A stretch of 64,000 nt of DNA from Sphingobacterium bambusae (GTDB lineage: Bacteria > Bacteroidota > Bacteroidia > Sphingobacteriales > Sphingobacteriaceae). Below the pieces are notes generated by a model. It was not told the DNA's origin. It was given only the letters and a program-made list of their open reading frames with translations, and ran no database searches. Within the stretch, counting starts at the first letter, position 1. Each line of letters starts with the position of its first letter. Of this stretch, positions 34,553-57,538 are shown piece by piece. The position numbers and the translations under genes are program-made. The stretch is taken from assembly GCF_033955345.1 (NCBI RefSeq), contig NZ_CP138332.1, forward strand, positions 2,976,001 to 3,040,000, read 5' to 3'.

Positions 34553-35668
34553 ATGCAAAAACAAAAAATAGCACTTGTTAACGGACAAATCATCAATGGG
34601 CATGATGTATTTCTGGGCCACGGATTGCTTATGGATGCGGGGCGGATTCAGGGGATATTTCCTAGACAAAATATTCCAGTGGATTACACTCAGGTTGACG
34701 TACATAAAAGCATCATCTGTCCGGGACTCATAGATCTACAGATTTACGGAACGGGGAATGATCTGTTCTCTGCGGAACTAACCGTGGATAGCTTAGGCCG
34801 AATCGAAGATGGCTTGCTGAGGCAGGGATGTACGTCCTTCATGTTGACTTTGGCAACCAATAGTGCTGCTGTGTTTAAGGAGGCTATTCACGTCTTTCAA
34901 CAAGCTCCGAGGAAGACCGCCTTAGGTTTGCATTTGGAAGGCCCCTTTCTGAATGCAGCAAAAAAAGGAGCGCACCCAGCGGAACATATGCTTATCCCAT
35001 CACTTGAAAATATAGAAAGTTTATTGTCTGAAGACCAAGGTGCAGTCAAGATGATGACCGTCGCGCCGGAGTTGATTCATCAAGCGGCTATCGATGTACT
35101 ACAGAGACGCGGCATCTTGCTGAGTGCGGGACATAGCGCAGCCTCATTTGAAGAAGCGATGCTCGGATTTTCGAAGGGAATACCTGCAGTGACGCATCTA
35201 TGGAATGCCATGTCGAGTTTCCACCATCGCGATACCGGACTGCCTGGAGCTACCGTTCGGCATGAAGGTGTAATGGCTTCCATCATTGCAGACGGCGTGC
35301 ACGTGGATTTTGAGGCGCTGAAAATTAGTAAACAGTTGTTGGGCGAGCGGCTTTTCCTTATCACAGATGCGGTAGCAGCCTGCGACAAGGATATTTATCA
35401 ACATGTGCGGCATGAGGATCACTACACGATGCCGGATGGTACCCTTAGCGGTTCTGCACTCACACTGCTGCAAGCCGTGAAGAATTGTGTTGAGCATGCA
35501 GATATCGCGTTGGACGAGGCTTTACGAATGGCTACATCCTACCCTGCGCAGCTTTTGGGAAGAACAGATATCGGAAATCTAAACAGCGGATCTTTGGCTA
35601 ATGTGTTGGTGTTCGATGCTGATTTTGTGCTGCAACAGGTGTATCTTGAAGGAGAACGTTTCGCTTAA
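34553..35668 (+). CDS. nagA: N-acetylglucosamine-6-phosphate deacetylase
   Basis: It converts GlcNAc-6-phosphate to GlcN-6-phosphate and acetate, the step after MurQ in murein sugar breakdown. The amidohydrolase shows the metal-site motif LGLHLEGPFLNAAKKGAHP (about residue 123), SAGHSAASFEEA, VTHLWNAMSSFHHRDTG and LITDAVAAC (catalytic Asp). The ATG at 34553 is preferred: it has a GAGGG Shine-Dalgarno six bases ahead, whereas an in-frame ATG 42 bases upstream has none and adds 14 unneeded residues. At 371 residues it is full-length. It leads the peptidoglycan-linked block. Confidence 0.94.
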   Translation: MQKQKIALVNGQIINGHDVFLGHGLLMDAGRIQGIFPRQNIPVDYTQVDVHKSIICPGLIDLQIYGTGNDLFSAELTVDSLGRIEDGLLRQGCTSFMLTLATNSAAVFKEAIHVFQQAPRKTALGLHLEGPFLNAAKKGAHPAEHMLIPSLENIESLLSEDQGAVKMMTVAPELIHQAAIDVLQRRGILLSAGHSAASFEEAMLGFSKGIPAVTHLWNAMSSFHHRDTGLPGATVRHEGVMASIIADGVHVDFEALKISKQLLGERLFLITDAVAACDKDIYQHVRHEDHYTMPDGTLSGSALTLLQAVKNCVEHADIALDEALRMATSYPAQLLGRTDIGNLNSGSLANVLVFDADFVLQQVYLEGERFA

Positions 35669-35725
35669 AAAAGATAAGTAACGGACTAAAATAGGGCATT
35701 TTTCGTCGCGTAGGCTTAAAAAGTG

Positions 35726-35733
35726 TAGTTTTG
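35726..35733 (+). promoter_or_regulatory. Candidate -7 box for the first GHL10 gene
   Basis: TAGTTTTG (exact TAnnTTTG) sits seven bases before the ATG at 35740; transcription would start practically at the start codon. Confidence 0.45.
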
Positions 35734-35739
35734 CAATCT

Positions 35740-37383
35740 ATGAATTTGAAACCGATAAAAAGTGCAGCAGCTTTGACCCTTGTGGCATCTGTACTGCTGT
35801 TTTCTTGTGCATCGCGTAAGAATAGAAAAAAGGCAAAGGAGCTGAAGTCTCCTGCTGTCGAGCTTGTGCTAGCGGATACCGCGAAATTGGATAAGCCATT
35901 GTCTGCGGTCACGCCTCCAGTCGTGACACGGGCGAAGCCCGCGGCAGACGCCCCTATTGAAGCCCCCTTGCGTGTAGAACTGCCGACGGTGAGCCGTGAG
36001 TTCCGCGGGGCTTGGGTTGCTACGGTCGCCAATATCAATTGGCCCACGAAAGGTAATTACAACACGGAATCTCAAAAACAGGAAGCTATTGAGTTGCTTG
36101 ACTTCCTAAAAGATAATAATTTTAATGCCGTTATTTTTCAGGTTAGACCATCCGGAGATGCCCTGTATGATAGTCCTTATGAACCATGGTCCTATTTTTT
36201 GACGGGCACAACCGGTAAGCGTCCTGCTCCTTACTATGACCCATTGACATTTTGGGTAGAGGAAGCGCATAAAAGAGGCTTGGAGCTTCATGTGTGGTTA
36301 AATCCATATCGCGCTCACCATTCTAGTGGAGGAGCGGTTGGTAGCGAGTCAATGGTACGCAAGGCTCCCGAGATGGTGCTGCGGCTGCGCAACGGGATGT
36401 ATTGGTTCGATCCGGCAAATCCTAAAACACAAGACCACGCGGCAAAAGTGGTCATGGATATTGTGAAACGCTACGATATTGATGGGGTGCACTTTGATGA
36501 CTACTTCTATCCCTACGCCGAGTATAATGGTGGAGCTGACTTCCCTGATGACGCATCGTGGAGTGCCTACCGTGGCTCCGGAGGCAAACTTTCGCGAGGC
36601 GATTGGCGTAGAGATAATGTGAATCGCTTTATCGAAAGGGTATATAAAGGCATTAAGGCCGAAAAAAACTACGTGAAATTCGGAATCAGTCCTTTTGGTA
36701 TCTGGAAGCCTGGCTATCCGGCCGGAATCACGGGTTCTTCGCAATATGATGAGTTGTATGCCGACGCTAAACTATGGTTGAATCGTGGGTGGATCGATTA
36801 TTTTACCCCACAGCTTTACTGGCCGATTGATCCGGCGCGGCAGAGCTTTACAGCACTTTTGCGCTGGTGGGAGTCCGAAAATACGCAAAAGAGGCATGTG
36901 TGGCCAGGCTTGAATACGGTGGAAGTGCGCTCGCCAAATCGGCCGCAGGAAATCGTTCGCCAAATAGAGGCCACCCGGCAGCTTATCCCCAACAGTGTGG
37001 GCGCCGCACATTGGAGTATTGCGGGCTTGACCAAAAGTCCCAATATGGTGCGCGCGTTGAAAGACGGACCCTACCATAGCAAAGCCCTAATACCGAGGAC
37101 GCCGTGGTTGCAGGTTAATCCGCTATTGGCACCTACATTGATCTTGACCTCCGAGAAGAGTAGCGTATTTGCAAAATGGCTACACAAACAGCCTGATCAG
37201 GTTTTTCAATGGGTAGCATATGCGCAGTATGGCGATGTGTGGGAATATGAGATCCTTGATGGCAGGCAGAGCGAAAGAAGCTTTCCGAAAATGAAAAACG
37301 GCCGAGAACTAAGGGCTATTGCGATAAAGGCCATAGATCGTTTAAGCAATGAGAGTGAGTATGTTGCTAAAAGAGCAATTTAG
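35740..37383 (+). CDS. GHL10 (DUF187) glycosyl hydrolase-like lipoprotein, copy 1
   Basis: A 547-residue outer- or inner-membrane lipoprotein (lipobox LLFSC, Cys 23). After a linker of ~65 residues the GHL10 TIM-barrel domain starts: FRGAWVATVANINWPTKGN, VIFQVRPSGDALYDS, ELHVWLNPYRAH, DGVHFDDYFYPYAEY (acidic active-site strand) and FGISPFGIWKPG. E. coli DigH (YddW), a GHL10 protein, binds peptidoglycan stripped of peptides and cuts the glycan; a similar role is likely here given nagA and the amidase on either side. Gene start overrides an in-frame TTG at 35731. Its terminator abuts the next gene. Confidence 0.88.
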   Translation: MNLKPIKSAAALTLVASVLLFSCASRKNRKKAKELKSPAVELVLADTAKLDKPLSAVTPPVVTRAKPAADAPIEAPLRVELPTVSREFRGAWVATVANINWPTKGNYNTESQKQEAIELLDFLKDNNFNAVIFQVRPSGDALYDSPYEPWSYFLTGTTGKRPAPYYDPLTFWVEEAHKRGLELHVWLNPYRAHHSSGGAVGSESMVRKAPEMVLRLRNGMYWFDPANPKTQDHAAKVVMDIVKRYDIDGVHFDDYFYPYAEYNGGADFPDDASWSAYRGSGGKLSRGDWRRDNVNRFIERVYKGIKAEKNYVKFGISPFGIWKPGYPAGITGSSQYDELYADAKLWLNRGWIDYFTPQLYWPIDPARQSFTALLRWWESENTQKRHVWPGLNTVEVRSPNRPQEIVRQIEATRQLIPNSVGAAHWSIAGLTKSPNMVRALKDGPYHSKALIPRTPWLQVNPLLAPTLILTSEKSSVFAKWLHKQPDQVFQWVAYAQYGDVWEYEILDGRQSERSFPKMKNGRELRAIAIKAIDRLSNESEYVAKRAI

Positions 37384-37405
37384 TACTATAACTAATAATT
37401 TACAG

Positions 37406-37438
37406 AACTACCTAAAATTTTTGGGTAGTTTTGTTTTT
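37406..37438 (+). terminator. Terminator after the first GHL10 gene, touching the amidase start
   Basis: A 7-bp stem (AACTACC / GGTAGTT) with an 11-base loop is followed by TTGTTTTTA, ending one base before the amidase ATG. The 3' arm also holds the -7 box of the amidase (37426-37433). Confidence 0.65.
37426..37433 (+). promoter_or_regulatory. Candidate -7 box for the amidase, inside the terminator
   Basis: TAGTTTTG matches TAnnTTTG and is six bases before the ATG at 37439. It is made from the 3' arm and T-tract of the upstream terminator, so the amidase mRNA would be nearly leaderless. Confidence 0.4.
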
Positions 37439-38104
37439 ATGGGTAAGCGGATTGTAGGATTTTTTGTGTTTTTTGTTTGGTGGGTTCTGTCTTTTCAACT
37501 GCGGGCGCAGGAACGCCCTACTATCGTGCAGCGTCCGATTACTTGGAATAGCACACGTGAAGATCTTTCGCTGTCCTATCTGGAACAGCGTCATGGCATC
37601 AAAAGCGCTTCGGTGGAGATCGTTCCAAAGATGGTGGTGGTGCACTGGACGGATGTGCTTTCTGTAAGTAAAACCATCCGTACCTTTGATCCGGTGCAGC
37701 TTCCGGGAAGGCCCGGCCTCAAGAAAGCTAGTCTGCTAAATGTTTCTGCACAGTTTGTTATTGGACGAGATGGTACGATTTTTCAGCTCCTTCCCGAAAC
37801 AACTTTCGCTCGCCATACAATAGGTCTCAACTATTGTGCTATTGGGATAGAAAATATAGGGTCTGCCCGTTATCCGCTAACCGAAGCGCAGCTCAAAGCC
37901 AATACAGCCTTGATCAAATATTTGATGTCGAAGTATGATATTCAGTATGTCATCGGGCATCACGAGTATCAAGCCTTTCAAGGAACCGAATGGTGGAAAG
38001 AAACCGACCCCGGTTATTTTACCAAGAAATCTGATCCAGGGAATGCTTTTATGGAACAGCTTCGTTTGAACTTGGGCATGCAGCAGTCGATTGTGGCGAA
38101 GTAG
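37439..38104 (+). CDS. Secreted N-acetylmuramoyl-L-alanine amidase (amidase_2 family)
   Basis: It cuts the bond between MurNAc and the stem peptide, yielding denuded glycan. The ATG at 37439 gives a signal peptide (ending QLRAQ), while the longer open frame overlapping the GHL10 gene does not. Zinc-amidase motifs: VVVHWTDV (first His), VSAQFVIGRDGTIFQLLPE, HTIGLNYCAIGIENIG and IGHHEYQ; the last ligand-type Asp lies in DPGYFTKKSDPG. About 221 residues. Located between GHL10 and the SusC gene, consistent with a periplasmic role in murein turnover (inference). Confidence 0.9.
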   Translation: MGKRIVGFFVFFVWWVLSFQLRAQERPTIVQRPITWNSTREDLSLSYLEQRHGIKSASVEIVPKMVVVHWTDVLSVSKTIRTFDPVQLPGRPGLKKASLLNVSAQFVIGRDGTIFQLLPETTFARHTIGLNYCAIGIENIGSARYPLTEAQLKANTALIKYLMSKYDIQYVIGHHEYQAFQGTEWWKETDPGYFTKKSDPGNAFMEQLRLNLGMQQSIVAK

Positions 38105-38313: not shown

Positions 38314-38373
38314 ATGAAAAGACTTCCATTGAGCCTTTTTATGAATAAACTTCAAAACAACTACCATGAATAA
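38314..38373 (+). CDS. Possible 19-residue upstream ORF before susC1
   Basis: A short frame (MKRLPLSLFMNKLQNNYHE) begins at 38314 and its stop (38371-38373) lies five bases inside the susC1 coding sequence, in a different frame. Such overlap would couple the two translationally. No Shine-Dalgarno of note precedes it, and chance occurrence is possible. Confidence 0.22.
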   Translation: MKRLPLSLFMNKLQNNYHE

Positions 38374-41300
38374 AGCTTTACTCGTAGCAGTTGCTTTGGG
38401 AGGTGTGATACAAGGTGCCTATGCAGGCATTGTTCCAGAGATATTTGGGACAAGTTATCATGCATCGCCCAAAGGTAACTTTCCTAATCAAATTGAGGTT
38501 TCCGGAATCGTACGTGATGCTTCTGGACCCGTAGCTGGTGTAACTGTAACGGTGGTCGGTACCTCCGCCGTCGCACAGACCGATCAGAACGGAGCCTTCT
38601 CCATTTCGGCAGCATCAGGCAACACACTGCGCTTTTCTGCAATCGGCTACAAATCCAAGGATGTGTCCGTCGAGGGTTCGACCGCAAACGTGCTGTTGGA
38701 AAATGATGATACCTCGTTGGATGAGGTGATTGTCACAGCCCTAGGCATAAAACGGGAGAAAAAGGCACTGGGATATGCTGCGCAGGATATTAATGCTGAT
38801 GAGCTTATGAAAAATAAGAATCCAAATATTATTAATTCGTTGAACGGAAAAATTGCTGGTGTGAATGTTACAAATTCCGGCGGCGCGCCAGGAGCCTCTT
38901 CTAATATCGTGATTCGTGGTGGAACTTCTTTGGAGCGCGATAACCAACCTCTTTTTGTTATCGATGGTGTTCCCATGGATAATTCAACTGGGCAAGGAGA
39001 TAACTCCGCATTTGATGGAAATACCAATATTTCAACGACTAATGGAAACCGAGCGCTCGATCTGAATCCTGAAGACATAGAATCGATCTCCGTTTTGAAA
39101 GGGCCATCTGCTGCTGCGCTTTATGGATTGCGAGCTGCTTCTGGAGCTGTGGTTATTACAACGAAGAAGGGTAAAGATGGAGCTACACAGGCATCTATCA
39201 GCTCCCGATTTGGAACGAATTGGGTGAATAAGCTTCCCGAGCAGCAAACGTTATATGGTCAAGGGTCCTATTACAATGGATCTCTCGTCGAGCAAACCTT
39301 TGAGTCTTGGGGAGATCCCATTGCAGCTGGAGAACTGCGCTATAACAATTTGCGCGACTTTTATGAAACAGCAACTTCCTACGACAATTCTTTTAACATT
39401 TCTGGTGGATCGGCAAAAGGGAATTTCTTTTTATCGGGATCTAACATATATCAAACTGGTGTGGTTCCAACGACAGATTTTAATCGATCGACTGTTAGAT
39501 TCAATGGTGAGCAGAAGCTTGGACGTGTTACCGTCGGCGCAAATGCTTCGTATGCTATGAGTGATACACGTAAAACACTAACCGGATCTGGGCTGTGGGG
39601 GGCAGGAGGAAATGGCTATATGGAAGGCGTCCTGATTTGGCCGGGCAATGCGAATATGAAAGATTATTTAAATCCAGATGGTTCCAATAAGCTTCTACTC
39701 CCGGAAGTAGCTTTAGAAAATAATATGGATAATCCTTATTGGTTAATTAATAAGAATCCTCAAAATGACAAGACGGATCGGATCATTGGAAATATTTATA
39801 CCAATATTAATGTTGCGGATTGGTTTGATATTACATATAGACTCGGTATAGATAATTTTACTACGCAGTTTAATTCATTGGTGTCTGAAGGTTCGAGTGT
39901 GAAATTGGCATGGCAACAGGGGATGATGTCGAATACGGATAGAAAATACCAATACCTGAATAGCAATTTGATGTTGAATTTCAAGAAGCAAGTGAACGAT
40001 TGGGACTTTGGTCTTTTGCTGGGTACGACTGCTGAGGATACAAAAATCAAATCTACATCCGTGAGAGGTGAGGGGTTTGTCATTAAAGGATTCGAGAGCA
40101 TTGAAAATTTTGATCAAACGGATAAGTATTATGCACAGGTATTTAATGACAAGAGATTAGTCGGTGTATATGGTGATTTAAGGATCGGGTATAAAAACTA
40201 TGCTTACTTGAACTTTACAGGGAGAAATGACTGGTCTTCCACTTTACCAATAGCGAATAGATCATTCTTCTACCCATCGGTTTCAGGATCATTTATTTTT
40301 ACAGAATTATTGGCAAAGAACGATTTCTTGACATTTGGTAAGTTACGAGCGTCATGGGCTTCGGTAGGCAAGGATGCTACTCCTTACGTTACCAATACTT
40401 ACCTTTTTGGCCCGGAATTAACGATAGGCGGAGGATTTAGAAATCACTGGACAAGAGGGAATAACCAGTTGCAACCAGAAAAAACTAACGCTTTCGAGGT
40501 AGGAACTGATTTACGTTTCTTAAAAGATCGCTTGGGCTTGGAGTTTACCTATTATCAAACAAATTCAATCAACCAAATTTTACAACCAAGAGTTTCCAAT
40601 GCTACGGGCTATATCTTGACATACTACAATATTGGGGAGCTGAACAATAAAGGTATTGAGTTGACTTTAAATGCGACACCCATAAAAAGGGAAAATTTCA
40701 CTTGGAATACGGCATTGAATCTATCGCACAATACGGGTAGGGTGGCTGAATTGATAGGCGGATTGGATATTTTATATGTCACCGATGTGCAGGTAGGAAC
40801 TGGTAAAGCTGCATCTTATAATGACGGAGATTTTATGGCTTTGAGTGGTTCCGTTTGGCAAACAGATGATGATGGAAATCTTTTGCTAGACTACGCGACA
40901 GGAAGACCACTGACAACCAATACAACGACGACTTATGTAGGAAACAGAGAGCCTGATTTTATTGGCGGATGGAACAACTCCTTCACATATAAAAATTGGG
41001 ATCTTTCGTTTTTATTTGATTTTCGTAAAGGAGGTGATGTCTATAACGCATCGGAATATTTGATGACCGTGTATGGTACAGGCCAAAAGACTGGACAGCG
41101 AGGAGAGACGTTGCAGTTTACAGGCCGTGCATTGAATCCTGAGACGCAGCAATATGAGACGATTACGAGAGATGTTGTGGCAGATGAGGCATTTTATAAA
41201 GATGTATACACAAAGCACACACCAAATTTTATAGAAAATGTCAATTGGTTCAGATTACGCTCTGTTTCGTTGAGTTATTCGTTAAACACGGAATATCTCA

Positions 41301-41497
41301 AAAGAAGCAAGTTTATCAAGGGGGCAACCTTTAATGCTACGGGGAACAATCTTTGGCTGCTTACGAACTATTCAGGTGTAGATCCTGAGACTAGCGCTGC
41401 AGGAGCTGGCGTTGTCGGTTCTGGCTCTGTGGGTGTTGATTACGCGGGAGTTCCCGCAACAGCCGGATTTACGGTAGGTGTTAACTTAAAATTTTAG
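38366..41497 (+). CDS. SusC/RagA-type TonB-dependent transporter, pair 1
   Basis: A 1043-residue outer-membrane importer. After a signal peptide (ending GAYA) comes a carboxypeptidase-like CNA_B domain (VSGIVRDASGPVAGVTVTVV, about residues 47-115), a TonB-box region (DEVIVTALGIKREKK), the plug (NIINSLNGKIAGVNVTNSGG, IVIRGGTSL, DGVPMDN) and a long beta-barrel ending GFTVGVNLKF. SusC proteins take up oligosaccharides together with a SusD lipoprotein. Cargo is not readable from the sequence, but its setting suggests murein-derived glycans (inference). The SusD partner begins three bases after its stop. Confidence 0.95.
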   Translation: MNKALLVAVALGGVIQGAYAGIVPEIFGTSYHASPKGNFPNQIEVSGIVRDASGPVAGVTVTVVGTSAVAQTDQNGAFSISAASGNTLRFSAIGYKSKDVSVEGSTANVLLENDDTSLDEVIVTALGIKREKKALGYAAQDINADELMKNKNPNIINSLNGKIAGVNVTNSGGAPGASSNIVIRGGTSLERDNQPLFVIDGVPMDNSTGQGDNSAFDGNTNISTTNGNRALDLNPEDIESISVLKGPSAAALYGLRAASGAVVITTKKGKDGATQASISSRFGTNWVNKLPEQQTLYGQGSYYNGSLVEQTFESWGDPIAAGELRYNNLRDFYETATSYDNSFNISGGSAKGNFFLSGSNIYQTGVVPTTDFNRSTVRFNGEQKLGRVTVGANASYAMSDTRKTLTGSGLWGAGGNGYMEGVLIWPGNANMKDYLNPDGSNKLLLPEVALENNMDNPYWLINKNPQNDKTDRIIGNIYTNINVADWFDITYRLGIDNFTTQFNSLVSEGSSVKLAWQQGMMSNTDRKYQYLNSNLMLNFKKQVNDWDFGLLLGTTAEDTKIKSTSVRGEGFVIKGFESIENFDQTDKYYAQVFNDKRLVGVYGDLRIGYKNYAYLNFTGRNDWSSTLPIANRSFFYPSVSGSFIFTELLAKNDFLTFGKLRASWASVGKDATPYVTNTYLFGPELTIGGGFRNHWTRGNNQLQPEKTNAFEVGTDLRFLKDRLGLEFTYYQTNSINQILQPRVSNATGYILTYYNIGELNNKGIELTLNATPIKRENFTWNTALNLSHNTGRVAELIGGLDILYVTDVQVGTGKAASYNDGDFMALSGSVWQTDDDGNLLLDYATGRPLTTNTTTTYVGNREPDFIGGWNNSFTYKNWDLSFLFDFRKGGDVYNASEYLMTVYGTGQKTGQRGETLQFTGRALNPETQQYETITRDVVADEAFYKDVYTKHTPNFIENVNWFRLRSVSLSYSLNTEYLKRSKFIKGATFNATGNNLWLLTNYSGVDPETSAAGAGVVGSGSVGVDYAGVPATAGFTVGVNLKF

Positions 41498-41500
41498 AAG

Positions 41501-43141
41501 ATGAAGAAGATATTATACCTTTTGGCCATATTGGGCAGTTTTTTTCTGGAAGGCTGTAACAAATGGTTGGATATTAATAATAATCCCAATAGCGCAAATT
41601 CGACTGTTCCTTTACCGGAGCAACGTCTGCCTTCCATACTTGCTCAATTTGCGGATGGGTACGAAAGTGCGGGTACAAGAGCTGTCCATGTGACCCATCA
41701 ATTAGCAAATGTTTATGGGGCAACTACGCGCAACTACTTGCTTACACGGTGGTACTCCGACGCCGCTGCTGCGAATTGGCCTTGGCAAGCTTGGTATGTA
41801 AATACCGCGGTAAACATTCAGCCTATGATAGAGGCTGCCGAAAAATTGGAGGCTTATCACTATGTTGGTGTGGGCAAGATCATGAAGGCATGGGGCTTTG
41901 GGTATTTGGCTGACTTTTACGGTATACTACCTTATCGGGAGTTCGATAATCCAGAGATTATCACGCCGGCGTTTGATGATGCTGAGTATGTTTACAGTCA
42001 AGTTATTCCGCTTTTGGATGAGGCGGTTGTAGATCTTCAAAAAACGCAAGGTGTTGCTGCGCCAGATTTGTCTCTAGGAGACACCTATAACCGAGGTAAT
42101 GTGGACAACTGGATTAAGCTTGCTTATGGTTTAAAAGCTAGGTTCTTGTCCCATCTCAACAAAAAATCCGTTTACGATGAAGATGCCATTTTACAGGCGT
42201 TGCAGAACGCTCCTCAGACAGCGGAAGAATCTACTATTTTCCAATATATTGATCAAACGGAAACGACAACTTCTACAGCTCAATCTGCTCTACAATATGT
42301 GAATACATCTGCATCGACTAGATTATCGAAAATGTATTTGGACTACATATTAAATAGATATACCGGTGCGCCAACAGGGGGACAAGATATGCAAGATCCC
42401 CGTTTTCAACTTTTGGTTCCGCATGCTCAAGAACCTGATGGAACACTACGGCCATCTATTGGGGTGGATTTTTCCTCAGATGTGGTCTTAACCGGGCCGG
42501 TAGCTTATAGTTATTCTCCAACGACCAATAAATTTAGCAATAAAGATTCTGTGTACGTACAATTGCGCGAGGCAGTAGCGGCAAATGGAAGGGTTTTGTC
42601 AACGGGAACTTGGTATAACCATAAAGACTCAAAAGGTTTGTTGTTGACTGGCGCCGAGATGAAATTTATTGAAGCGGAAGTTCGTTTTCGAAAGGGTGAG
42701 TCGGCTCTTGCCTTAGCGGCTTACAAAGAGGGGATTCGTATTCATATGCAAATCATGGATATTGCTGCGAATGATATAAGTGGCTTCCTAGCAAGTTCTT
42801 CTGTCATTCAGAACGCTTCTTCATTGACGTTGAGTCATATCATGATTCAGAAATATATCGCGTTATCTTATTCTCCAGAACAATGGGTGGATATGCGTCG
42901 GTTAAACTTTTGTACAGATGCGTCCGGCAATTATAATGAGTTGACAGGTGTATACAAAGGTTATAAGCGGCCTGTACATGTATATACCGAGGCCTATCCT
43001 TCAGCAACAGATTGGCCTCGTCGTTTCGCTATGGCAACCTATGAAGTGAATTATAATAGTCAGCAATTGCGCTTGGCTGCTCCTACATTTGATTTACCAA
43101 CTTATATCAACGAACCGATATGGTGGGATAAGGAAGACTAG
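41501..43141 (+). CDS. SusD/RagB family lipoprotein, pair 1 (SusD-like_2 type)
   Basis: A 546-residue surface lipoprotein (lipobox FLEGC) that binds glycan over the SusC pore. The sequence NKWLDINNNPNSAN and PLPEQRLPSILAQFADG start the mature region, and the TPR-like helices include AVNIQPMIEAAEKLEAYHYVGVGKIMKAWGF; the closing SPEQWVDMRRLNF motif is the SusD-family element. The NNNPNSA start and residue pattern fit the SusD-like_2 (PF12771) branch better than the classical one. It is coupled to susC1 and followed by a strong terminator. Confidence 0.92.
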   Translation: MKKILYLLAILGSFFLEGCNKWLDINNNPNSANSTVPLPEQRLPSILAQFADGYESAGTRAVHVTHQLANVYGATTRNYLLTRWYSDAAAANWPWQAWYVNTAVNIQPMIEAAEKLEAYHYVGVGKIMKAWGFGYLADFYGILPYREFDNPEIITPAFDDAEYVYSQVIPLLDEAVVDLQKTQGVAAPDLSLGDTYNRGNVDNWIKLAYGLKARFLSHLNKKSVYDEDAILQALQNAPQTAEESTIFQYIDQTETTTSTAQSALQYVNTSASTRLSKMYLDYILNRYTGAPTGGQDMQDPRFQLLVPHAQEPDGTLRPSIGVDFSSDVVLTGPVAYSYSPTTNKFSNKDSVYVQLREAVAANGRVLSTGTWYNHKDSKGLLLTGAEMKFIEAEVRFRKGESALALAAYKEGIRIHMQIMDIAANDISGFLASSSVIQNASSLTLSHIMIQKYIALSYSPEQWVDMRRLNFCTDASGNYNELTGVYKGYKRPVHVYTEAYPSATDWPRRFAMATYEVNYNSQQLRLAAPTFDLPTYINEPIWWDKED

Positions 43142-43150: not shown

Positions 43151-43185
43151 AAATTCCCGAAAGTTCGCTTTCGGGAATTTTTTTT
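43151..43185 (+). terminator. Terminator after SusCD pair 1
   Basis: A 13-bp perfect stem (AAATTCCCGAAAG / CTTTCGGGAATTT) with a UUCG tetraloop, followed by eight T. It separates the first SusCD pair from namZ. Confidence 0.93.
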
Positions 43186-44466: not shown

Positions 44467-44487
44467 CACACTATACCGAAAAGTTGA

Positions 44488-44514
44488 AACACGCCTTTGT
44501 GCGTGTTTTTTTTT
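44488..44514 (+). terminator. Terminator after namZ
   Basis: A 7-bp stem (AACACGC / GCGTGTT) with a 6-base loop and nine T, about 20 bases past the namZ stop. Confidence 0.85.
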
Positions 44515-49978: not shown

Positions 49979-51415
49979 ATGAAAAATAATATCCTGATTA
50001 ATAGATATATCACATCGATGTGGCTCCTGTGCGGGATAGTGGCCGTTTTGCTGTCTGGCTGCAAGGATGATTTTCCGGAAAATGTGGCCTCCGACAAGTT
50101 TACAGAACTTTCAACAATAAGGATAACGAATGCGGGTGCTGATGGTGCAACTAGTATTGAAGGGGTTATCGATGAAGATCGTAAGACAATTTCTTTTCCT
50201 CGAATAGATCCAGAAACGGATTTTGAAAATATTCAATTTGAAGCGGTATTGTCTGATGGCGCTAAATTGGATAAAGAGCGTTATACCTTTCCGTTTACGG
50301 AAGGCGACTCGGAGAAAACAATCGTTATCAAAGTGACGAACGCTCCAAGGTACAAGGAGTATTTTGTCACCTTGCGTTTGCGAATTCCCGTTTTTGGTGC
50401 AGATGTAGCGAAGCGTAATGTGTTTGACTTTACGAACAATGAATTAGGAAATCCGATCTACGAAACATTTGTGTCGGCCTTAACTCGTGGATCCGGATTT
50501 GACGGAGAGCATGTTTTGGTAGTTACGCGTCATGTTGCGGGATCACACCTGTTGAAAGTTAGTGATCTACGGAACGGGGTGGCCAATAAAATTCCATTAA
50601 ATCTAAGTGGTGTATCTCAGGGTACTTTCGCGGTATCCGTAGGTGATATTGTCAACGGACATACATACATTGCTAATCTTTCCGGTAATACTGCGGCAAG
50701 TCCTTTAAAGATTTATCATTGGACCGACCCTAATGTTGCGCCACAAGTTATCGCGAACATCAATGTTGGGACTATTGCCGGTGCAGGTGTTAGGCATGGA
50801 GATAACTTCACCATCAATTTAGATGACTCGGGGAATGGTTTTATCTTCTTCGGCGACAATGCAGGGACAAAGGTTTTGCGACTAACGGTTACAAATTATA
50901 CCACCGTTGGTGATCCGTTAGTAATTACCTCAACGGTGAATGTAGGCTCATGGAGCTCCTTCACGCGGGTGGGTAATACCGATAACTACCTTTTTACAGG
51001 GCATGATGCTCCGATTATGGTTGTTAATAGCGCTGGAGCTTTAACGCACACGCTGGGTCGTACGGCAATACCTATCCGCAGCTCGGCCGCAAGAGTGGTG
51101 GAGTTCAATGGGGAGCGTTACCTTCTGACAACGACGGCTGCACGTACTGGTTCAGAAGGTACAGTAATGTATCTGTACGATATCACGCGTGGAGCAAATA
51201 TTGTTGATGCGTTAACCGCTTTTGAACAGTCGGAAAGAAGGCCGCTACTGGAGTACTCCTTTTTGGGTCCAGCAAATACTTCGCCTTCTACACAAACTGG
51301 ATGGGCTGTGATCAAGGATGAGGAAGGAAACGACGAGACACTTCTGCTTTACTCAGGAGCTAGTGATGCCGGTTTTGTGGTGATGGAAATTCCAAAGAAG
51401 GAACCTGAAGATTAA
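49979..51415 (+). CDS. PUL-linked lipoprotein (possibly DUF4623 family)
   Basis: A 478-residue lipoprotein (lipobox LLSGC) in the position where SusE/SusF-like surface glycan-binding proteins lie. After the Cys comes an Ig-like beta region (IRITNAGADGATSIEGVID, FPRIDPETDFENI) and then a repetitive beta-rich part, likely a propeller, with VLVVTRHVAGSHLLKV and later MYLYDITRGANIVDALTAF. I believe it corresponds to DUF4623, but this should be treated as tentative. No catalytic residues are apparent. Role in glycan binding is inferred from its place only. Confidence 0.6.
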   Translation: MKNNILINRYITSMWLLCGIVAVLLSGCKDDFPENVASDKFTELSTIRITNAGADGATSIEGVIDEDRKTISFPRIDPETDFENIQFEAVLSDGAKLDKERYTFPFTEGDSEKTIVIKVTNAPRYKEYFVTLRLRIPVFGADVAKRNVFDFTNNELGNPIYETFVSALTRGSGFDGEHVLVVTRHVAGSHLLKVSDLRNGVANKIPLNLSGVSQGTFAVSVGDIVNGHTYIANLSGNTAASPLKIYHWTDPNVAPQVIANINVGTIAGAGVRHGDNFTINLDDSGNGFIFFGDNAGTKVLRLTVTNYTTVGDPLVITSTVNVGSWSSFTRVGNTDNYLFTGHDAPIMVVNSAGALTHTLGRTAIPIRSSAARVVEFNGERYLLTTTAARTGSEGTVMYLYDITRGANIVDALTAFEQSERRPLLEYSFLGPANTSPSTQTGWAVIKDEEGNDETLLLYSGASDAGFVVMEIPKKEPED

Positions 51416-51429
51416 TGTTAAAATTATAA

Positions 51430-51470: not shown

Positions 51471-51492
51471 TGTCTACTGATATTTTGCTGTG

Positions 51493-52956
51493 ATGAACCA
51501 TTTAATGAAAAGAAAGATTTTTATGCTTGCCTGCTCCATTGTGTTGCTTTGGGCTAGCAGTTGTAGTAAAAGTTCGGATGTACCATCTCCAGAACCAGAA
51601 CCGCCAACCGGCGAAGGAGCACTGTTATTTCCTAAGAAAGAAATGCGTGCCGTCTGGATGACGACGGCTTGGGGCTTAGATTGGCCGCTTGGAGATTACA
51701 CAGAGGCGGGGCAAAAGCAAAAGTATATTCAATATTTGGACAAGTTCAAGCAGATGAATATAAACGCCATTTTTTTTCAGGTTCGTGCGATGGGCGATGC
51801 CTACTATAATTCGGCATATGAACCCTGGAGCGCTTCCCTAACCGGTGCTAGAGGGAATGCTCCAAGTTATGACGTGTTAAAATTCTTGATCGATGAAGCC
51901 CACGCTCGAGGCATAGAGTTTCATGCGTGGATGAATCCATATCGAATTGCTACTCGTGCTGGTACATCGACAGCTTATCCGGCATTGCACAGCTCCATCA
52001 ATGCCAGTTGGGTGGTTAGTCATGAAAAGATTCAAATATACAACCCGGCGCGGCCGGAGGTACGCGAGCGTATTGTCAACATTGTGAAAGAATTGATCTC
52101 AACATACCCTGTCGATGGGTTGCACTTGGATGATTATTTTTATCCAGATCCTGCGTCGGCAGGAACCATGGTGTCTGATCAGCAAGATTATGAGACCTAT
52201 GGGACGGGTTTTGGTACTATTCAAGCATGGCGACGAGATAACGTAGATAAAGCGATACAGGGCATACATCAGGCGGTCGTCGCCACAAGGCCTGAAGTTG
52301 TTTTTTCGATATCGCCAGCTGCCAACAAGGATTATAATTTCAATACCTTGTACGCGGATTTAGGAAAGTGGTGTCAACAAGGTTGGGTCGATTTGCTTAT
52401 TCCGCAACTTTATCAGGAGATTGGCAACAGCTCGAATAATTTTCAGACGAATCTTTCGATTTGGGCACAGTATAATTATAGTGCGGCGCTGGTTATCGGT
52501 CACGGTCTTTATAAGTTTGGTGATGCCAGCCAACCGGCAGCATTTCAGACGACGCAGGAACTCGATAGACAGTTCAATTTGACTAAGCTCAATAAAAAGG
52601 CTGTAGGTAGTGCGATGTATAGTGCCAAATATATTCTCGACAATAAAATTGGAATCGCCGATAGGCTGTCTGTCTTGTACGAAAATCCTGGGGTTATTCC
52701 ATTTATGGGGCGGCAAGTGGCCGCTGCGCCTGCAGTCCCCGGATCTTCTAGTATAACGTCCGCTACATTGCGTTGGACAAATACTTCCGGTCGATCGGTT
52801 GTTTATCGATTCTCCGATCTCAAGGCGGAAGGGCAGGTCGTTGCGGTCACCAATGCTAATTCTTTGCTGTTAAATCAGCCGGGGTTTTATGTGATCACAG
52901 CTTTAAATGTGGACAATCAAGAGAGTGGTGCTACTGTACCAATTGAATTTAAGTAG
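51493..52956 (+). CDS. GHL10 (DUF187) glycosyl hydrolase-like lipoprotein, copy 2
   Basis: A ~487-residue lipoprotein (lipobox ASSC) and paralogue of the 35.7-kb GHL10 protein. Motifs: MRAVWMTTAWGLDWPLGDY, IFFQVRAMGDAYYNSAYEPW, EFHAWMNPYRIA, DGLHLDDYFYPDPA (acidic strand), FSISPAANKDYN and LLIPQLYQE. The C-terminal ~90 residues form an extra beta domain (RSVVYRFSDLKAEGQ). A DigH-like role on denuded murein glycan is likely by family. The ATG at 51493 is one of three nearby starts (GTG 51490, ATG 51505). Its stop overlaps the next gene's GTG. Confidence 0.85.
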   Translation: MNHLMKRKIFMLACSIVLLWASSCSKSSDVPSPEPEPPTGEGALLFPKKEMRAVWMTTAWGLDWPLGDYTEAGQKQKYIQYLDKFKQMNINAIFFQVRAMGDAYYNSAYEPWSASLTGARGNAPSYDVLKFLIDEAHARGIEFHAWMNPYRIATRAGTSTAYPALHSSINASWVVSHEKIQIYNPARPEVRERIVNIVKELISTYPVDGLHLDDYFYPDPASAGTMVSDQQDYETYGTGFGTIQAWRRDNVDKAIQGIHQAVVATRPEVVFSISPAANKDYNFNTLYADLGKWCQQGWVDLLIPQLYQEIGNSSNNFQTNLSIWAQYNYSAALVIGHGLYKFGDASQPAAFQTTQELDRQFNLTKLNKKAVGSAMYSAKYILDNKIGIADRLSVLYENPGVIPFMGRQVAAAPAVPGSSSITSATLRWTNTSGRSVVYRFSDLKAEGQVVAVTNANSLLLNQPGFYVITALNVDNQESGATVPIEFK

Positions 52957-54854
52957 TGTTTTTACGTTTTCGACAGACAGTGGGGGTATTAAATTTATTG
53001 GTTAAAGCTGGTGTTTTTTGTTTTTTTCTGACTGCTGTGCCGCTGCTGGGGATTACCCAACAACCATTCAAGTTTGCTCAGGTTACAGATACACATGTGG
53101 GCAGTTCTACGGGTGCGGAGGACTTGCGTTGTACAGTTCGGGATCTCAACAATCAAAAAGATATCGACTTCGTTCTGCTCTCGGGCGATGTTACCGAGTT
53201 CGGTTCCGATGAAGAGCTTCAGCTTGCCAAACAAATTTTGGACAGCCTGTATTTGCCACTTTACGTAATTCCGGGGAACCACGATAGCAATTGGTCGGAA
53301 AGTGGTGCTAATTCCTTTCGTAAGGTTTTTAATGGAGAGACATTTTTCTTCAGGCACAAGGGCTACATGTTTATGGGGACGGCCTCTGGGCCTAATATGC
53401 GCATGGGGCCTGGGCAGGTTCCACGGGAAAACCTTGTTTGGATGGATTCGGTTTTTGCCGCCCATTCGGATGTGGAAACTCCGCTCATCTATATCAATCA
53501 TTATCCGCAGGACTCTTCGCTCAACAATTGGTACGAAGCTATTGATCGCGTAAAGCAGCGTAATGTGCAGCTTATGCTTTGTGGGCATGGTCATGTTAAC
53601 AAACTTTACGACTGGGAGGGGATTCCAGGGGCTATGGGACGCTCGAACCTGCGTGCTAAAGATTCGATCGGTGGATACAATATCATCAGCATTGCCAATA
53701 ACAAGGCTGTTTATCAGGTTCGTCGACCCGCCGTAAAAACGGAAGATCCTTGGTTGCAGGTGGACTTGTTGGATCATCGGATTGGGCAACATGATGTTAG
53801 GTCTGGCAGACCAGATTATTCGGTCAATGAAAAATATAAAGCACAGGTGTCGGAGCTGTGGCGGTTTGAAGATGAAGCGGATTTGGGCGCAGGTTTCGCG
53901 GAGTACAAGCAGCTCCTGATTACCGGAAATACGGCGGGTTACGTATTTGCGCTGGATAACAAAAGCGGCAGAAAAATCTGGGCGTATAAAACCGGTGGAA
54001 AGATCTATGGAACACCTGCTGTCTGGAAAAGGATGGTGGTTGTGGGTTCGTCTGACGGCAATATCTACGGTTTAGACGCAGACAGTGGGAAAGAAAAATG
54101 GCGAATACGTACGCCAAAAGCGGTGTTGGGTAGTCCGGTCGTTAATCATGGTGTTGCATTTATTGGATCTTCAGACGGTGTTTTTCGCGCTATTGATGCG
54201 GTTTCCGGAAAGATCCGATGGACATTCAATGAAGTCGCTGGTTATGTCTCTGCGAGGCCGACCCTTTACAATGGATTGGTAATCTTTGGCTCTTGGGGCA
54301 ATGGTTTTTACGCCTTAAATCAGCAGACTGGAAAATTGGTCTGGAGCTGGAGCAATGGGCAGTCGAGCCGTATGTTATCTGCGGCGGCCTGCTATCCTGT
54401 GGTGCAGCATGATAAGCTCTACCTCGTGGCTCCAGATCGGTACATGACCTGCTTGAATGCTAAAACGGGCGCTGTTATTTGGCGTAACAAAATGGACGAT
54501 GTGCGTGTTCGGGAATCGATGGGGATCTCCAAAGATGGTCAATATGTCTATGTCAAAACGATGGACGGTAATTTGTTAGGCGTATCAACAGCGGCTGAGG
54601 AAATGCATATCGGATGGCATTCTACCTTGCAGTTGCCCTATGAACTTAATCCGACAGCGATAGAAACCGCAGGTTCGCAGGTTTTGGTGCCTAGCCATTC
54701 CGGCCTGCTTTCTGGCGTAGATGCGGTAAGTGGGCAGGTATTATGGCAGTATAAGCTGTCTAATTCAATGATTAATCCTATGTGCGTATCGAAAGGCGGG
54801 CATGTAATCGTTTCTTCGATGGATGGCAAAATCGTTAAGTTGAAAGTGAAGTAG
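52956..54854 (+). CDS. Secreted metallophosphatase fused to a PQQ-type beta-propeller
   Basis: A 632-residue two-domain exported protein with a GTG start that overlaps the previous stop (TAGTG). A signal peptide precedes the calcineurin-type domain: FAQVTDTHVGSS (Asp-His, about residue 43), SGDVTEF, VIPGNHDSNW (Asn-His-Asp, about 106), IYINHYPQD and LCGHGHVN (about 209). From about residue 300 a PQQ-like propeller follows, with repeats such as IWAYKTGGKIYGTPAVWK and KIRWTFNEVAGYVSARPTLY. All metal-ligand positions look intact. A phosphate- or lipid-pyrophosphate-releasing role in cell wall breakdown is possible but unproven. Confidence 0.82.
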   Translation: MFLRFRQTVGVLNLLVKAGVFCFFLTAVPLLGITQQPFKFAQVTDTHVGSSTGAEDLRCTVRDLNNQKDIDFVLLSGDVTEFGSDEELQLAKQILDSLYLPLYVIPGNHDSNWSESGANSFRKVFNGETFFFRHKGYMFMGTASGPNMRMGPGQVPRENLVWMDSVFAAHSDVETPLIYINHYPQDSSLNNWYEAIDRVKQRNVQLMLCGHGHVNKLYDWEGIPGAMGRSNLRAKDSIGGYNIISIANNKAVYQVRRPAVKTEDPWLQVDLLDHRIGQHDVRSGRPDYSVNEKYKAQVSELWRFEDEADLGAGFAEYKQLLITGNTAGYVFALDNKSGRKIWAYKTGGKIYGTPAVWKRMVVVGSSDGNIYGLDADSGKEKWRIRTPKAVLGSPVVNHGVAFIGSSDGVFRAIDAVSGKIRWTFNEVAGYVSARPTLYNGLVIFGSWGNGFYALNQQTGKLVWSWSNGQSSRMLSAAACYPVVQHDKLYLVAPDRYMTCLNAKTGAVIWRNKMDDVRVRESMGISKDGQYVYVKTMDGNLLGVSTAAEEMHIGWHSTLQLPYELNPTAIETAGSQVLVPSHSGLLSGVDAVSGQVLWQYKLSNSMINPMCVSKGGHVIVSSMDGKIVKLKVK

Positions 54855-55117: not shown

Positions 55118-55174
55118 GTGCGTGTTTCATTTTGAAATTTGCATATTTGTAAGAAAGTAGAATTTGCTGTTAAT

Positions 55175-55990
55175 ATGATACGAGTTACGGAAAAGGAGTC
55201 GAATTATCAGGACTTGGATAAAATGTCTGTTCATGATCTCTTGACGAACATGAATAAGGAGGATCGTTCGGTTCCATTGGCTGTGGAGAAAGCTATTCCG
55301 CAGTTGGAGCGGTTGGTTAAAGTGACGGTTGAGAAAATGAGCCAAGGTGGTCGACTCTTCTATATTGGTGCCGGAACAAGCGGTCGTTTAGGAATATTGG
55401 ATGCCTCCGAGTGTCCTCCAACTTTTGGTGTGCCCTTCGATTGGGTAATTGGATTGATAGCCGGAGGCGATACAGCGATACGGAGAGCCGTAGAGTTTGC
55501 CGAAGATGATAAAGAACAAGCATGGAAGGACATGCTGGCCTACAACGTGAACAAAAACGATGTGGTTATTGGTATAGCTGCTTCTGGTACGACGCCTTAC
55601 GTTATTGGCGGGCTGACGCGTGCCAACGAAGAAGGCCTGATCACTGGCTGTATCGTTTGTAACACGGATTCGCCCATAGCGCAGGTGGCGCAGTATCCTG
55701 TAGAAGTGGTCGTGGGACCAGAGTTTGTTACAGGTTCCACGCGCATGAAATCGGGTACGGCCCAAAAGTTGGTTCTCAATATGTTGAGCACGTCGGTGAT
55801 GATACAGCTGGGGCGCGTCAAAGGAAATAAAATGGTGGACATGCAGCTTTCTAACGTGAAGCTGGTTGATCGTGGCGTACGCATGGTGATGGATGAAACC
55901 GGAGCCGATGAGGAAACGGCAACCATCTTGTTGGAACGCTACGGCAATGTTCGTAAAGCCATAGAGAATAGCAAAGCTTTTAAAGAGTAG
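55175..55990 (+). CDS. murQ: N-acetylmuramic acid 6-phosphate etherase
   Basis: MurQ removes the lactyl ether from MurNAc-6-phosphate to give GlcNAc-6-phosphate, the NagA substrate. The 271-residue SIS-fold protein has the phosphosugar-binding motif IGAGTSGRLGILDASECPPTFG (catalytic Glu, about residue 78), VIGLIAGGDTAIRRAVE, IGIAASGTTPYVIGG and TGSTRMKSGTAQKLVLNM. The start at 55175 is chosen over 12 extra upstream codons lacking family match. The transporter gene follows 60 bases later in the same direction. No kinase gene that would make its substrate is seen. Confidence 0.95.
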   Translation: MIRVTEKESNYQDLDKMSVHDLLTNMNKEDRSVPLAVEKAIPQLERLVKVTVEKMSQGGRLFYIGAGTSGRLGILDASECPPTFGVPFDWVIGLIAGGDTAIRRAVEFAEDDKEQAWKDMLAYNVNKNDVVIGIAASGTTPYVIGGLTRANEEGLITGCIVCNTDSPIAQVAQYPVEVVVGPEFVTGSTRMKSGTAQKLVLNMLSTSVMIQLGRVKGNKMVDMQLSNVKLVDRGVRMVMDETGADEETATILLERYGNVRKAIENSKAFKE

Positions 55991-56050
55991 TATGGTCTAA
56001 CTCGACCTGCTACTCCTCATACCATCTATATACCCACTTTTATACCGAAA

Positions 56051-57538
56051 ATGTCACCTTTTATACTATTAGCCTTCTTATTTGTCTATTTTGGGATGCT
56101 GCTTGCAGTGTCATATTTTACCTCACGCAATTCGTCGGATAACTCCACTTTTTTTGTTGCAAACCGTAACTCCAAGTGGTACATGGTTGCCTTCGGGATG
56201 ATTGGTACTGCACTTTCTGGTGTAACTTTTATCTCGGTTCCGGGTGCGGTGGGTACCTCCAACTTTAGCTATTTTCAATTTGTTCTGGGAAACGCATTGG
56301 GATTCTTGGTTATAGCCTACGTTTTGCTTCCACTGTATTATCGGATGAACCTCACGTCGATCTATACCTATTTGGAAGAGCGTCTTGGGCATAAGAGCTA
56401 TAAAACTGGGGCGATGATCTTTTTGGTGTCGCGCACGATCGGATCGGCCTTTCGGCTGTACTTGGTGGCCATCATTCTCCAGAAATTTATTTTTGATGCA
56501 TGGGCAGTTCCCTTTGGGGTTACTGTGGGCGGTTGCTTGGTGCTTATTTGGTTATACACGAATAAAGGCGGATTGAAGACGATCATTATTACCGATACCC
56601 TGCAAACGTTCTGTTTGCTGTTAGCGGTGCTTTTGTCAATCTATTTTATGGCGGACGGCCTTGGTATTTCCGTGTTGGACGCATTTGAGCGTGTCAAAGA
56701 AAGTTCGTATGCGCAGATTGTGGTGTGGGAAGATTTATTGGGCAATAAGAACCACTTCTGGAAACACGTCATTGGCGGCGCATTTGCCACTATTGCCATG
56801 ACCGGGCTAGATCAAGATCTGATGCAGAAGAACCTCAGCATGCGCACCATCGGCGAAGCTCAAAAGAATATGCTGACCTTTACAGCGATCTTTGTTGTGA
56901 TCAACCTTTTTTTCTTGGCTGTGGGAGCTCTGCTCTACATTTATGTTGCCGATAAAGGGATCGATATTTCCATGTTGCGCACGCCCGATTACCTTTATCC
57001 GGAAATTGCGTTGAATAATCTCTCGGTCGCTGCAGGTATCATCTTTATGATGGGTTTGACCGCGGCCACATTTGCGACAACAGATTCTGCATTAACCGCG
57101 CTAACCACCTCGTACTGTGTTGATTTTCTGAATTTCAACAAGAAGGAAAACCCGAATGACCCTGCATTGGTGCGTCAACGAAATATTGTGCATTTTGTGT
57201 TTAGCGTGGTGATGCTTTTGGTTATTCTTGTTTTTAGATTGATAAACGATGATTCGGTGGTTACGGCCATATTTACGGCTGCCAGCTATACCTATGGCCC
57301 GTTACTTGGTCTTTTTGCCTTCGGTATCTTGACTCGCTATACCGTGAACGATAAGCTGGTGCCTTACTTCTGCTTGTTATCCCCGGCGATTTGGTTTGTG
57401 CTGAATACGTATTATATCATACCGCATACAGCTTACCGTATCGGTTTTGAGCTGATCGTCTACAACGGATTAACGACATTCCTGTTGCTCTGGATTACCT
57501 CGCCCGGAAAGTTGGAGAAGGGAAGCCGTACATTTTAG
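56051..57538 (+). CDS. Sodium:solute symporter (SSS family), likely amino-sugar uptake
   Basis: A 495-residue inner-membrane transporter with about 13 hydrophobic segments. SSS signatures include FFVANRNSKWYMVAFGMIGT, GVTFISVPGA, NKGGLKTIIITDTLQT and GLDQDLMQKNLS, then ATFATTDSALTALTTS. The family carries sugars, amino acids and sialic acid with Na+. Placement directly after murQ suggests MurNAc or a related sugar as cargo, replacing a PTS permease; in Tannerella forsythia a MurNAc transporter, a kinase and MurQ are clustered in a comparable way. Cargo is an inference. Confidence 0.88.
   Translation: MSPFILLAFLFVYFGMLLAVSYFTSRNSSDNSTFFVANRNSKWYMVAFGMIGTALSGVTFISVPGAVGTSNFSYFQFVLGNALGFLVIAYVLLPLYYRMNLTSIYTYLEERLGHKSYKTGAMIFLVSRTIGSAFRLYLVAIILQKFIFDAWAVPFGVTVGGCLVLIWLYTNKGGLKTIIITDTLQTFCLLLAVLLSIYFMADGLGISVLDAFERVKESSYAQIVVWEDLLGNKNHFWKHVIGGAFATIAMTGLDQDLMQKNLSMRTIGEAQKNMLTFTAIFVVINLFFLAVGALLYIYVADKGIDISMLRTPDYLYPEIALNNLSVAAGIIFMMGLTAATFATTDSALTALTTSYCVDFLNFNKKENPNDPALVRQRNIVHFVFSVVMLLVILVFRLINDDSVVTAIFTAASYTYGPLLGLFAFGILTRYTVNDKLVPYFCLLSPAIWFVLNTYYIIPHTAYRIGFELIVYNGLTTFLLLWITSPGKLEKGSRTF

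Follow-up and report, generated by a model that had tools for sequence, protein, structure and literature searches.

A cluster of genes on the plus strand of the Sphingobacterium bambusae genome, at 34.5-57.5 kb of a 64,000-nucleotide stretch (assembly GCF_033955345.1, contig NZ_CP138332.1, positions 2,976,001 to 3,040,000; hereafter the window, whose coordinates are used below), joins genes for the use of N-acetylmuramic acid (MurNAc) to two SusC/SusD (SusCD) pairs, and we consider it likely that this locus encodes an outer-membrane importer of peptidoglycan fragments feeding a route of the MurT/MurK/MurQ type. A wider proposal, to which we give even chances, is that the second pair, SusC2D2, belongs to a Bacteroidota-wide SusCD subfamily dedicated to peptidoglycan fragments, which together with the DUF4623 propeller and a surface GHL10 lytic enzyme would form an outer-membrane murein 'utilisome', passed among genera as a four-gene unit. 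In Sphingobacterium this unit would have been linked to the MurT/MurK/MurQ-type route, in Bacteroidales to operons of the AmpG/NamZ type. The sequence evidence comprises which genes are present and to which families they belong, how far the cluster is conserved, and the homologues of MurK and AnmK encoded elsewhere in the genome. The four-gene module, its spread, the linkage counts and the topology are new here; the catabolic half is already known from Tannerella forsythia. A preliminary description of the window had proposed a MurNAc or peptidoglycan-sugar locus with SusCD and without a phosphotransferase system (PTS) gene, and this was supported, since no PTS gene was found in the locus and the arrangement is conserved throughout much of the genus and, to some extent, across the family.

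Gene content of the locus

Gene calls were rated by family-profile bit scores against the family cut-offs. The peptidoglycan interpretation is based in part on NamZ, MurQ and Amidase_2, families that act on murein. The namZ gene (43234..44466) encodes a predicted exo-beta-N-acetylmuramidase with both NamZ (GH171) domains above cut-off (NamZ_N PF07075, 236.3 bits, cut-off 26.9; PF20732, 102.9 bits), and murQ (55139..55990; TIGR00274, 325.2 bits, cut-off 302) encodes a MurNAc-6-phosphate etherase. Between them are located susC2 (44680..48135; TIGR04056, 739.8 bits), coding for the TonB-dependent transporter of the conserved module, susD2 (48150..49952; PF07980, 99 bits), coding for its surface lipoprotein lid, and the genes of a DUF4623 lipoprotein (49979..51415; PF15416, 636.4 bits), of the Cwp19-type lipoprotein enzyme GHL10b (51490..52956; PF02638, 215.7 bits), the second of its kind, and of a metallophosphatase with a PQQ-type propeller (52956..54854; PF00149, PF13360), which we also call the phosphoesterase. 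The intergenic gaps from susC2 to the phosphoesterase gene are -1 to 74 bp, and 284 bp precede murQ, which is followed by a sodium:solute symporter gene (SSF; 56051..57538; PF00474, 71.7 bits) whose product is MurT-like by context.

The upstream part of the cluster starts with nagA (34511..35668), coding for N-acetylglucosamine-6-phosphate (GlcNAc-6-P) deacetylase (TIGR00221, 286.7 bits, cut-off 225.65; below the NF008371 cut-off, 317 vs 483), for which an in-frame ATG at 34553 is the likely start. It is followed by the gene of the Cwp19-type lipoprotein enzyme GHL10a (35731..37383, with an ATG at 35740; PF02638, 221.9 bits), by an Amidase_2 gene for an N-acetylmuramoyl-L-alanine amidase (37349..38104; PF01510, 75.9 bits), whose likely start is the ATG at 37439 and whose beginning, judged by eye, resembles a signal peptide, and by susC1 (38366..41497; TonB-dependent outer-membrane transporter; TIGR04056, 638.5 bits) and susD1 (41501..43141; SusD-like_2 type; PF12771, 117 bits). 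A GH3 gene with a signal-peptide-like start (22780..24513; PF00933, 264.6 bits) lies 10 kb upstream of the cluster; its product, a putative beta-N-acetylhexosaminidase, scored 150.7 bits with NF003740/PRK05337, under the cut-off of 207, so that the wording 'NagZ-like' of the preliminary description was apt. All the genes named there (nagA, two GHL10, Amidase_2, two SusCD, namZ, murQ, symporter and GH3) are present on the plus strand; the DUF4623 and metallophosphatase/propeller genes inside the interval, as well as the unlinked genes for AnmK and a MurK-type kinase, had gone unmentioned. Like a Sus-type polysaccharide utilisation locus (PUL), the cluster has adjacent susC and susD genes, in two pairs, and co-located glycan enzymes (two GHL10, NamZ and the amidase).

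Terminator-like hairpins were detected at 37402-37434, immediately 5' of the likely amidase start, and on the plus strand in the susD1-namZ gap (43151..43180, 13 pairs and a T tail) and the namZ-susC2 gap (44486..44509, 9 pairs and a T tail), so that the cluster probably comprises several transcription units, although the signal is weak: shuffled sequences gave 18.5 +/- 3.6 hairpins and the region itself 24. On the same weak evidence of three hairpins inside the cluster, a single operon was rejected.

Conservation in the genus Sphingobacterium

The nearest named relatives by SusD2 were S. griseoflavum (88%) and S. paludis (87%). Neighbouring genes took the name of their best BLASTP match among the window proteins and a few further genes met during the analysis, and SusC/SusD labels at 25-38% identity mean only 'some SusC/SusD', so that unlike SusCDs may escape. 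namZ and murQ were found in one fetched stretch in 43 of the 47 same-genus genomes, and in the other four (G001, G020, G031 and G039) the stretch ends at contig ends. In 39 of the 43, a SusCD pair separates namZ from murQ, and in G032 it directly precedes namZ; 36 of those 39 have pairs like SusC2D2 (42-64% identity), and G006, G018 and G035 have more distant ones. SusCD is absent from the namZ/murQ stretch of G003, G019 and G036, where the frame gap is 198, 24 and 0 bp, respectively. Because of these three genomes, namZ-murQ-symporter seems to be the core of the locus and SusCD a part that was gained or lost. The symporter gene lies directly 3' of murQ in all 44 same-genus records having murQ.

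DUF4623 and GHL10b were found in exactly 15 genomes, those with window-type SusC2D2 (14 of these have the full stretch; the fifteenth is G031, on a separate contig). The metallophosphatase/propeller gene is at the locus in 41 of the 47 genomes and in 9 of the 60 distant SusD2 loci described below. GH9 and/or polysaccharide deacetylase genes were found ahead of murQ in 30 genomes and GH18 in four. The GH9 and deacetylase genes lie between the phosphoesterase gene and murQ (for example L127:1410-3889), and in G002 they form one 828-amino-acid frame; they possibly provide a deacetylate-then-cut route for N-acetylglucosamine (GlcNAc) units. A gene for an NAGPA-type phosphodiester glycosidase is located ahead of namZ in six genomes (for example L126:8340-9473 and L067:8372-9364), and its product could target sugar-phosphate links such as those of wall polymers. 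In L106 (G037:C1:307264-327263) and L107, from one same-genus genome, the namZ, phosphoesterase/propeller, symporter and porin genes are split into several frames, reflecting either decay of the locus or poor assembly.

Linkage in the family Sphingobacteriaceae and spread across the phylum

Relatives of SusD2 were searched at E <= 1e-75 in 151 genomes sampled evenly across the family; the thresholds for an unrelated control SusD (25% identity) and for SusD1 were E 1e-60 and E 1e-30. SusD2 gave 35 matches in 33 genomes of other genera, all of which (33/33) carry namZ and murQ somewhere. Within 20 kb of SusD2 we found namZ in 14 of the 33, murQ in 16, either gene in 18 (18 matches) and both in 12, the chance expectation for namZ or murQ at this distance in a 4.7-Mb genome being 0.94 of the 35 matches. 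The control SusD was near namZ or murQ in 1 of 19 matches (Fisher p 0.0005, which is approximate because it compares matches, some of them from one genome). Four relatives of SusD1 (61-62% identity) in the 33 other-genus genomes lie 6-14 kb from namZ, and none of nine weaker matches has namZ or murQ within 20 kb. Much of the gene set recurs within the genus, and the linkage is kept in part in the wider family (18/33).

A search with 14 SusD2 sequences yielded 561 confirmed candidates, the best 80 of which, a choice that favours close relatives, comprised 20 loci of Sphingobacterium and 60 of other genera, including Pedobacter, Niabella, Bacteroides, Prevotella, Proteiniphilum and Draconibacterium. 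DUF4623 was present in 28 of these 60 loci and GHL10b in 26 of those 28, the two without it being L196 (5.6 kb) and L229 (7.6 kb). The block SusC2-SusD2-DUF4623-GHL10b recurs in other genera, in places beside salvage genes like those of T. forsythia. Among the 60 loci we counted namZ in 13, murK in five, murQ (at least 50% identity) in two, SpoIID in six, an AmpG-like transporter of the major facilitator superfamily (MFS) in five, NlpC/P60 in five and MR_MLE in seven, where Pfam matches to MFS_1/BT1 and MR_MLE are the basis of the labels 'AmpG-like' and 'epimerase'; 20 loci have one or more of these seven markers, and 45 do once GHL10 is added. The order is murK-susC2-susD2-DUF4623-GHL10b-namZ-symporter in Bacteroides propionicifaciens (L223), NlpC/P60-MR_MLE-susC2-susD2-symporter-namZ in L225, with AmiA-like, murQ and murK genes on the other strand, susC2-susD2-DUF4623-GHL10b-GT2-DUF4922-SpoIID-MFS-namZ in L192, which is near the T. 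forsythia order, and GH3-susC-susD-namZ-phosphoesterase in Draconibacterium (L234). Relatives of SusC1 (at least 44% identity) were found in 7 of the 60 SusD2 loci. The distribution is patchy. The 5.6-kb contig of L196, bearing SusC2-SusD2-DUF4623, is filed under a metagenome-assembled genome of Nanoarchaeia and is probably mis-binned Bacteroidota DNA.

Structural relatives and lipoprotein topology

The preliminary description likened the GHL10 proteins to DigH of E. coli; the solved relative found by search was Cwp19 of Clostridioides difficile (5oq2; E 2.2e-73 for GHL10a and E 3.4e-72 for GHL10b). The GHL10 domain of Cwp19 has lytic transglycosylase activity on peptidoglycan, according to the available part of the report (PMC6016235), and GHL10a and GHL10b may by family be regarded as Cwp19-type peptidoglycan enzymes, the lytic activity being that known for Cwp19. 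The DUF4623 lipoprotein, a possible surface glycan-binding protein, matches 4ftd (E 1.1e-107), and its model is a beta-propeller with 4ftd as its sole close match; no paper in the collection searched mentions DUF4623. The SusD2 model has the SusD fold (mean predicted local distance difference test score 77.5), and its good fold matches were SusD proteins only.

A tail was classed as surface-type if at least two acidic residues follow the lipid cysteine, with SusD2 (tail CDKFLD) as the yardstick. The counts excluded 20 Sphingobacterium loci, which mostly duplicate the genus set, as well as matches under the identity or coverage limits. Lipoboxes were readable in 91 of 99 SusD2, 38 of 40 DUF4623, 27 of 41 GHL10b, 25 of 28 GHL10a and 42 of 59 NamZ proteins, and such tails were found in 70 of the 91, 29 of the 38, 22 of the 27, 0 of the 25 and 0 of the 42, respectively. 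The GHL10a tail in the window is CASRKN, and all 25 readable same-genus GHL10a tails are without any acid; that of NamZ is CSANNR. The DUF4623 tail, C-K-D-D, fits the surface lipoprotein export signal K-(D/E)2 described for Capnocytophaga in the part of that report available (PMC5080379). These tails suggest that SusD2, DUF4623 and, in most orthologues, GHL10b are outside, and that GHL10a and NamZ are inside, probably facing the periplasm. The preliminary description had proposed that peptides are stripped and the glycan cut before import; this order calls for revision, because GHL10a and NamZ look periplasmic and much of the cutting would probably take place after import.

A MurK-type kinase, AnmK and the symporter

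Degradation of MurNAc through MurQ and NagA had been proposed as well, and both genes are present, but the route needs a further step: the symporter would deliver unphosphorylated MurNAc and MurQ needs MurNAc-6-phosphate, so that a kinase is required between them. The genome, a single contig of 5.56 Mb, encodes a MurK homologue of 285 amino acids (G000:C1:1377012) that is unlinked to the locus. It resembles the solved T. forsythia MurNAc kinases K1058 (8ow7, E 5.4e-60) and MurK (8ow9, E 1.7e-55) and the related structures 1zxo and 1zbs; with Pfam BadF it scored 22.2 bits, the cut-off being 31.5. With MurQ above its cut-off and a homologue of the MurK family, parts of a T. forsythia-type route appear to be present, and a route without a kinase was rejected. 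A homologue of AnmK is encoded at C1:2813633. By its family and gene context the symporter is probably MurT-like; relatives with 43-45% identity occur in the namZ/murK loci L223, L225 and L260. No match to AmpG was found in the genome with a single distant query and no positive control, an empty answer that shows nothing.

Taken together, DUF4623 and SusD2 would bind murein glycan or muropeptides at the cell surface, where GHL10b would cut long strands, and SusC2, perhaps also SusC1D1, would import the resulting fragments. In the periplasm, the amidase would strip the stem peptides, GHL10a would shorten the chain, and NamZ and the GH3 enzyme would remove MurNAc and GlcNAc by turns. The symporter would then take MurNAc over the inner membrane, MurK would phosphorylate it, MurQ would take off the lactate to give GlcNAc-6-P, and NagA would deacetylate the latter to glucosamine-6-phosphate, with AnmK rescuing the 1,6-anhydro ends left by a lytic GHL10.

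Comparison with known systems

The ybbC gene of T. forsythia is of the NamZ kind. It belongs to the operon Tanf_08345-08385, described as xanthan lyase, gtf, gtf, lytB, ampG and ybbC, then murT, murK and murQ, in the available text of PMC5388701, the catabolic half (MurT/MurK/MurQ route) being treated in the accessible parts of PMC5790795, PMC7670621 and PMC10465942. Going by the portions available of PMC5388701, PMC5790795 and PMC7670621, both systems have a sodium symporter, MurQ, a MurK homologue and no PTS. In contrast, those portions name no SusCD, DUF4623 or GHL10 for the T. forsythia operon, whereas the Sphingobacterium locus has all three; murK lies inside the operon in T. forsythia and is unlinked in S. 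bambusae. Loci L192, L211, L228 and L261 combine the SusC2D2 family with T. forsythia-like genes.

In Bacillus subtilis, nagZ, amiE, namZ, murQ and murP form an operon. It has in common with our locus a GH3 enzyme, an amidase, NamZ and MurQ, and it differs in the PTS transporter MurP and in the lack of an outer membrane. NagZ, AmiE and MurP of B. subtilis are mentioned in the available part of PMC6987092, which also describes a NagZ-like Rhodothermus GH3 gene co-transcribed with genes of intracellular proteins and a PUL for xylan. Cwp19 is a Gram-positive autolysin, unlike GHL10a and GHL10b, which are lipoproteins in a SusCD locus although both match it at E <1e-71. Sus-like PULs share with this locus the SusC/SusD pairs, the enzymes and the lipoproteins with surface-type tails, and differ from it in that the likely substrate here is bacterial wall glycan and no regulator lies inside the locus.

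The preliminary description knew of no SusCD system for murein glycan. A literature search for SusCD with murein gave, among the matches listed, papers on T. forsythia and on PULs in general; the pertinent one, of 2023 (PMC10199937), had already drawn a murein-type SusCD locus, so that this statement needs qualifying. This PUL of about 27 kb, from a Urechidicola symbiont of Idas mussels, likewise has two susCD, a sodium/iodide-type symporter, murQ, an amidase and GH3, and, as far as the available text of PMC10199937 goes, also lists GH171, GH10, GH18 and deoR. According to the same text it belongs to Flavobacteriaceae and contains ampG, nagB, an epimerase and dacA, with DUF4623 and the phosphoesterase/propeller unlisted; its substrate was left open, no interpretation as a murein importer was offered, and the likeness drawn here is one of gene lists. 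The accessible part of the review PMC13209645 names no SusCD for murein, and in that of PMC10877868 peptidoglycan genes were counted with no link to SusCD.

Alternative explanations

Several observations weigh against a murein importer. In fifteen of the 33 SusD2-bearing family genomes, namZ and murQ are both missing from the contig within 20 kb of SusD2, and the linkage counts are not independent, part of the linkage being due to shared ancestry. Beyond the genus, 26 of the 28 DUF4623 loci are without namZ, murQ and murK, though some of these stretches end at contig ends, and in 15 of the 60 loci, 7 of which are under 12 kb, GHL10 is missing along with all seven markers. At class level, 20 of 29 namZ genomes (one per family) showed no window-like SusCD, murQ or symporter within 20 kb around namZ, and no SusD2 relative at E <= 1e-20 was found in any of 31 genomes. 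Eight genus loci with a second namZ all lack murQ and the symporter, and three of them have SusC/SusD, only distant ones (24-28%). As to topology, the GHL10b tail of the window, CSKSSD, has one acid only, and within the genus just 18 of 33 readable SusD2 and 5 of 8 readable GHL10b tails have at least two. As to substrate, no SusD matched in the fold search was titled with a murein ligand, and we infer from sequence that SusC2D2 would bind and import murein glycan.

It is improbable, in our judgement, that the MurNAc genes serve to salvage turnover products of the cell's own wall, with the SusCD pairs recapturing own fragments lost through the outer membrane. The three same-genus genomes that keep namZ-murQ-symporter without SusCD (3.1-3.6 Mb) indicate that the core can stand alone, and AnmK is present; however, SusC2D2 is accompanied, as a unit, by GHL10b and DUF4623, whose tails are mostly of the surface type and which would be needless for periplasmic recycling, and the extra enzymes of other species (GH9, deacetylase, GH18 and NAGPA) suggest varied external substrates. 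We have equally little confidence that the substrate of SusC2D2 is a different amino-sugar glycan (chitin- or capsule-like), which also yields GlcNAc-6-P, and that its genes stand beside those for MurNAc as both feed NagA. The 26 DUF4623 loci outside the genus in which namZ, murQ and murK were not found would agree with this, as would GH18, or GH9 with deacetylase, at the locus in some relatives, but the enzyme tied to the SusC2D2 type is GHL10 (26/28), whose solved relative Cwp19 cuts peptidoglycan, and the neighbours elsewhere are NlpC/P60, MR_MLE, SpoIID, AmpG-like MFS, an AmiA-like amidase and murK. That SusC1D1 and not SusC2D2 imports murein, or that the pairs split the work between peptide-bearing and denuded fragments, is unlikely but deserves some weight, given the four SusD1 relatives near namZ in other genera and the SusC1 relatives in seven SusD2 loci; such pairs are nevertheless absent upstream of namZ from the fetched stretch in several congeners (G011, G012 and G040, for example), and pairs of the SusC2D2 type occupy the space between namZ and murQ in 36 of 43. 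A chance neighbourhood of unrelated genes, which the hairpins might favour by splitting the locus into several units, is hardly credible and was rejected, since 40 of 43 congeners have SusCD next to namZ and since, in 18 of the 33 family genomes, SusD2 has namZ or murQ close by, against 0.9 of 35 matches expected.

Neighbouring genes

No regulator gene was found among the genes of 34.5-57.5 kb. Outside the cluster there are a DeoR-type regulator on the minus strand (9785..10528), a two-component pair at 19.2-21.3 kb and a TetR regulator at 22.2 kb. The DeoR gene has 46-56% identity to deoR genes of other SusC2 loci, namely those of Pedobacter (L187 and L189) and Niabella (L197 and L215), and its product might, speculatively, regulate the locus. 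In 19224-24513, genes for a histidine kinase, a response regulator, an isochorismatase-like protein and the TetR regulator come directly ahead of GH3, and on the minus strand at 16616-19030 a DUF4270 gene adjoins that of a Kelch-repeat protein. Downstream of the symporter are tRNA-Val, purine nucleoside phosphorylase and Porin_10 genes; three tRNA-Val genes lie soon after the locus, at 57612-57687 (gac), 60839-60916 (tac) and 60925-61000 (tac).

Implications

The outer-membrane step of wall-fragment uptake looks open, since the T. forsythia papers, in the parts available, name inner-membrane transporters only, and the SusCD-DUF4623-GHL10 module with its fixed order is a testable candidate for this step. 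If this is true, murein would join the glycans fed through Sus-type gates, and DUF4623, an unannotated propeller family, would acquire a function, as would the GHL10 proteins of Bacteroidota.

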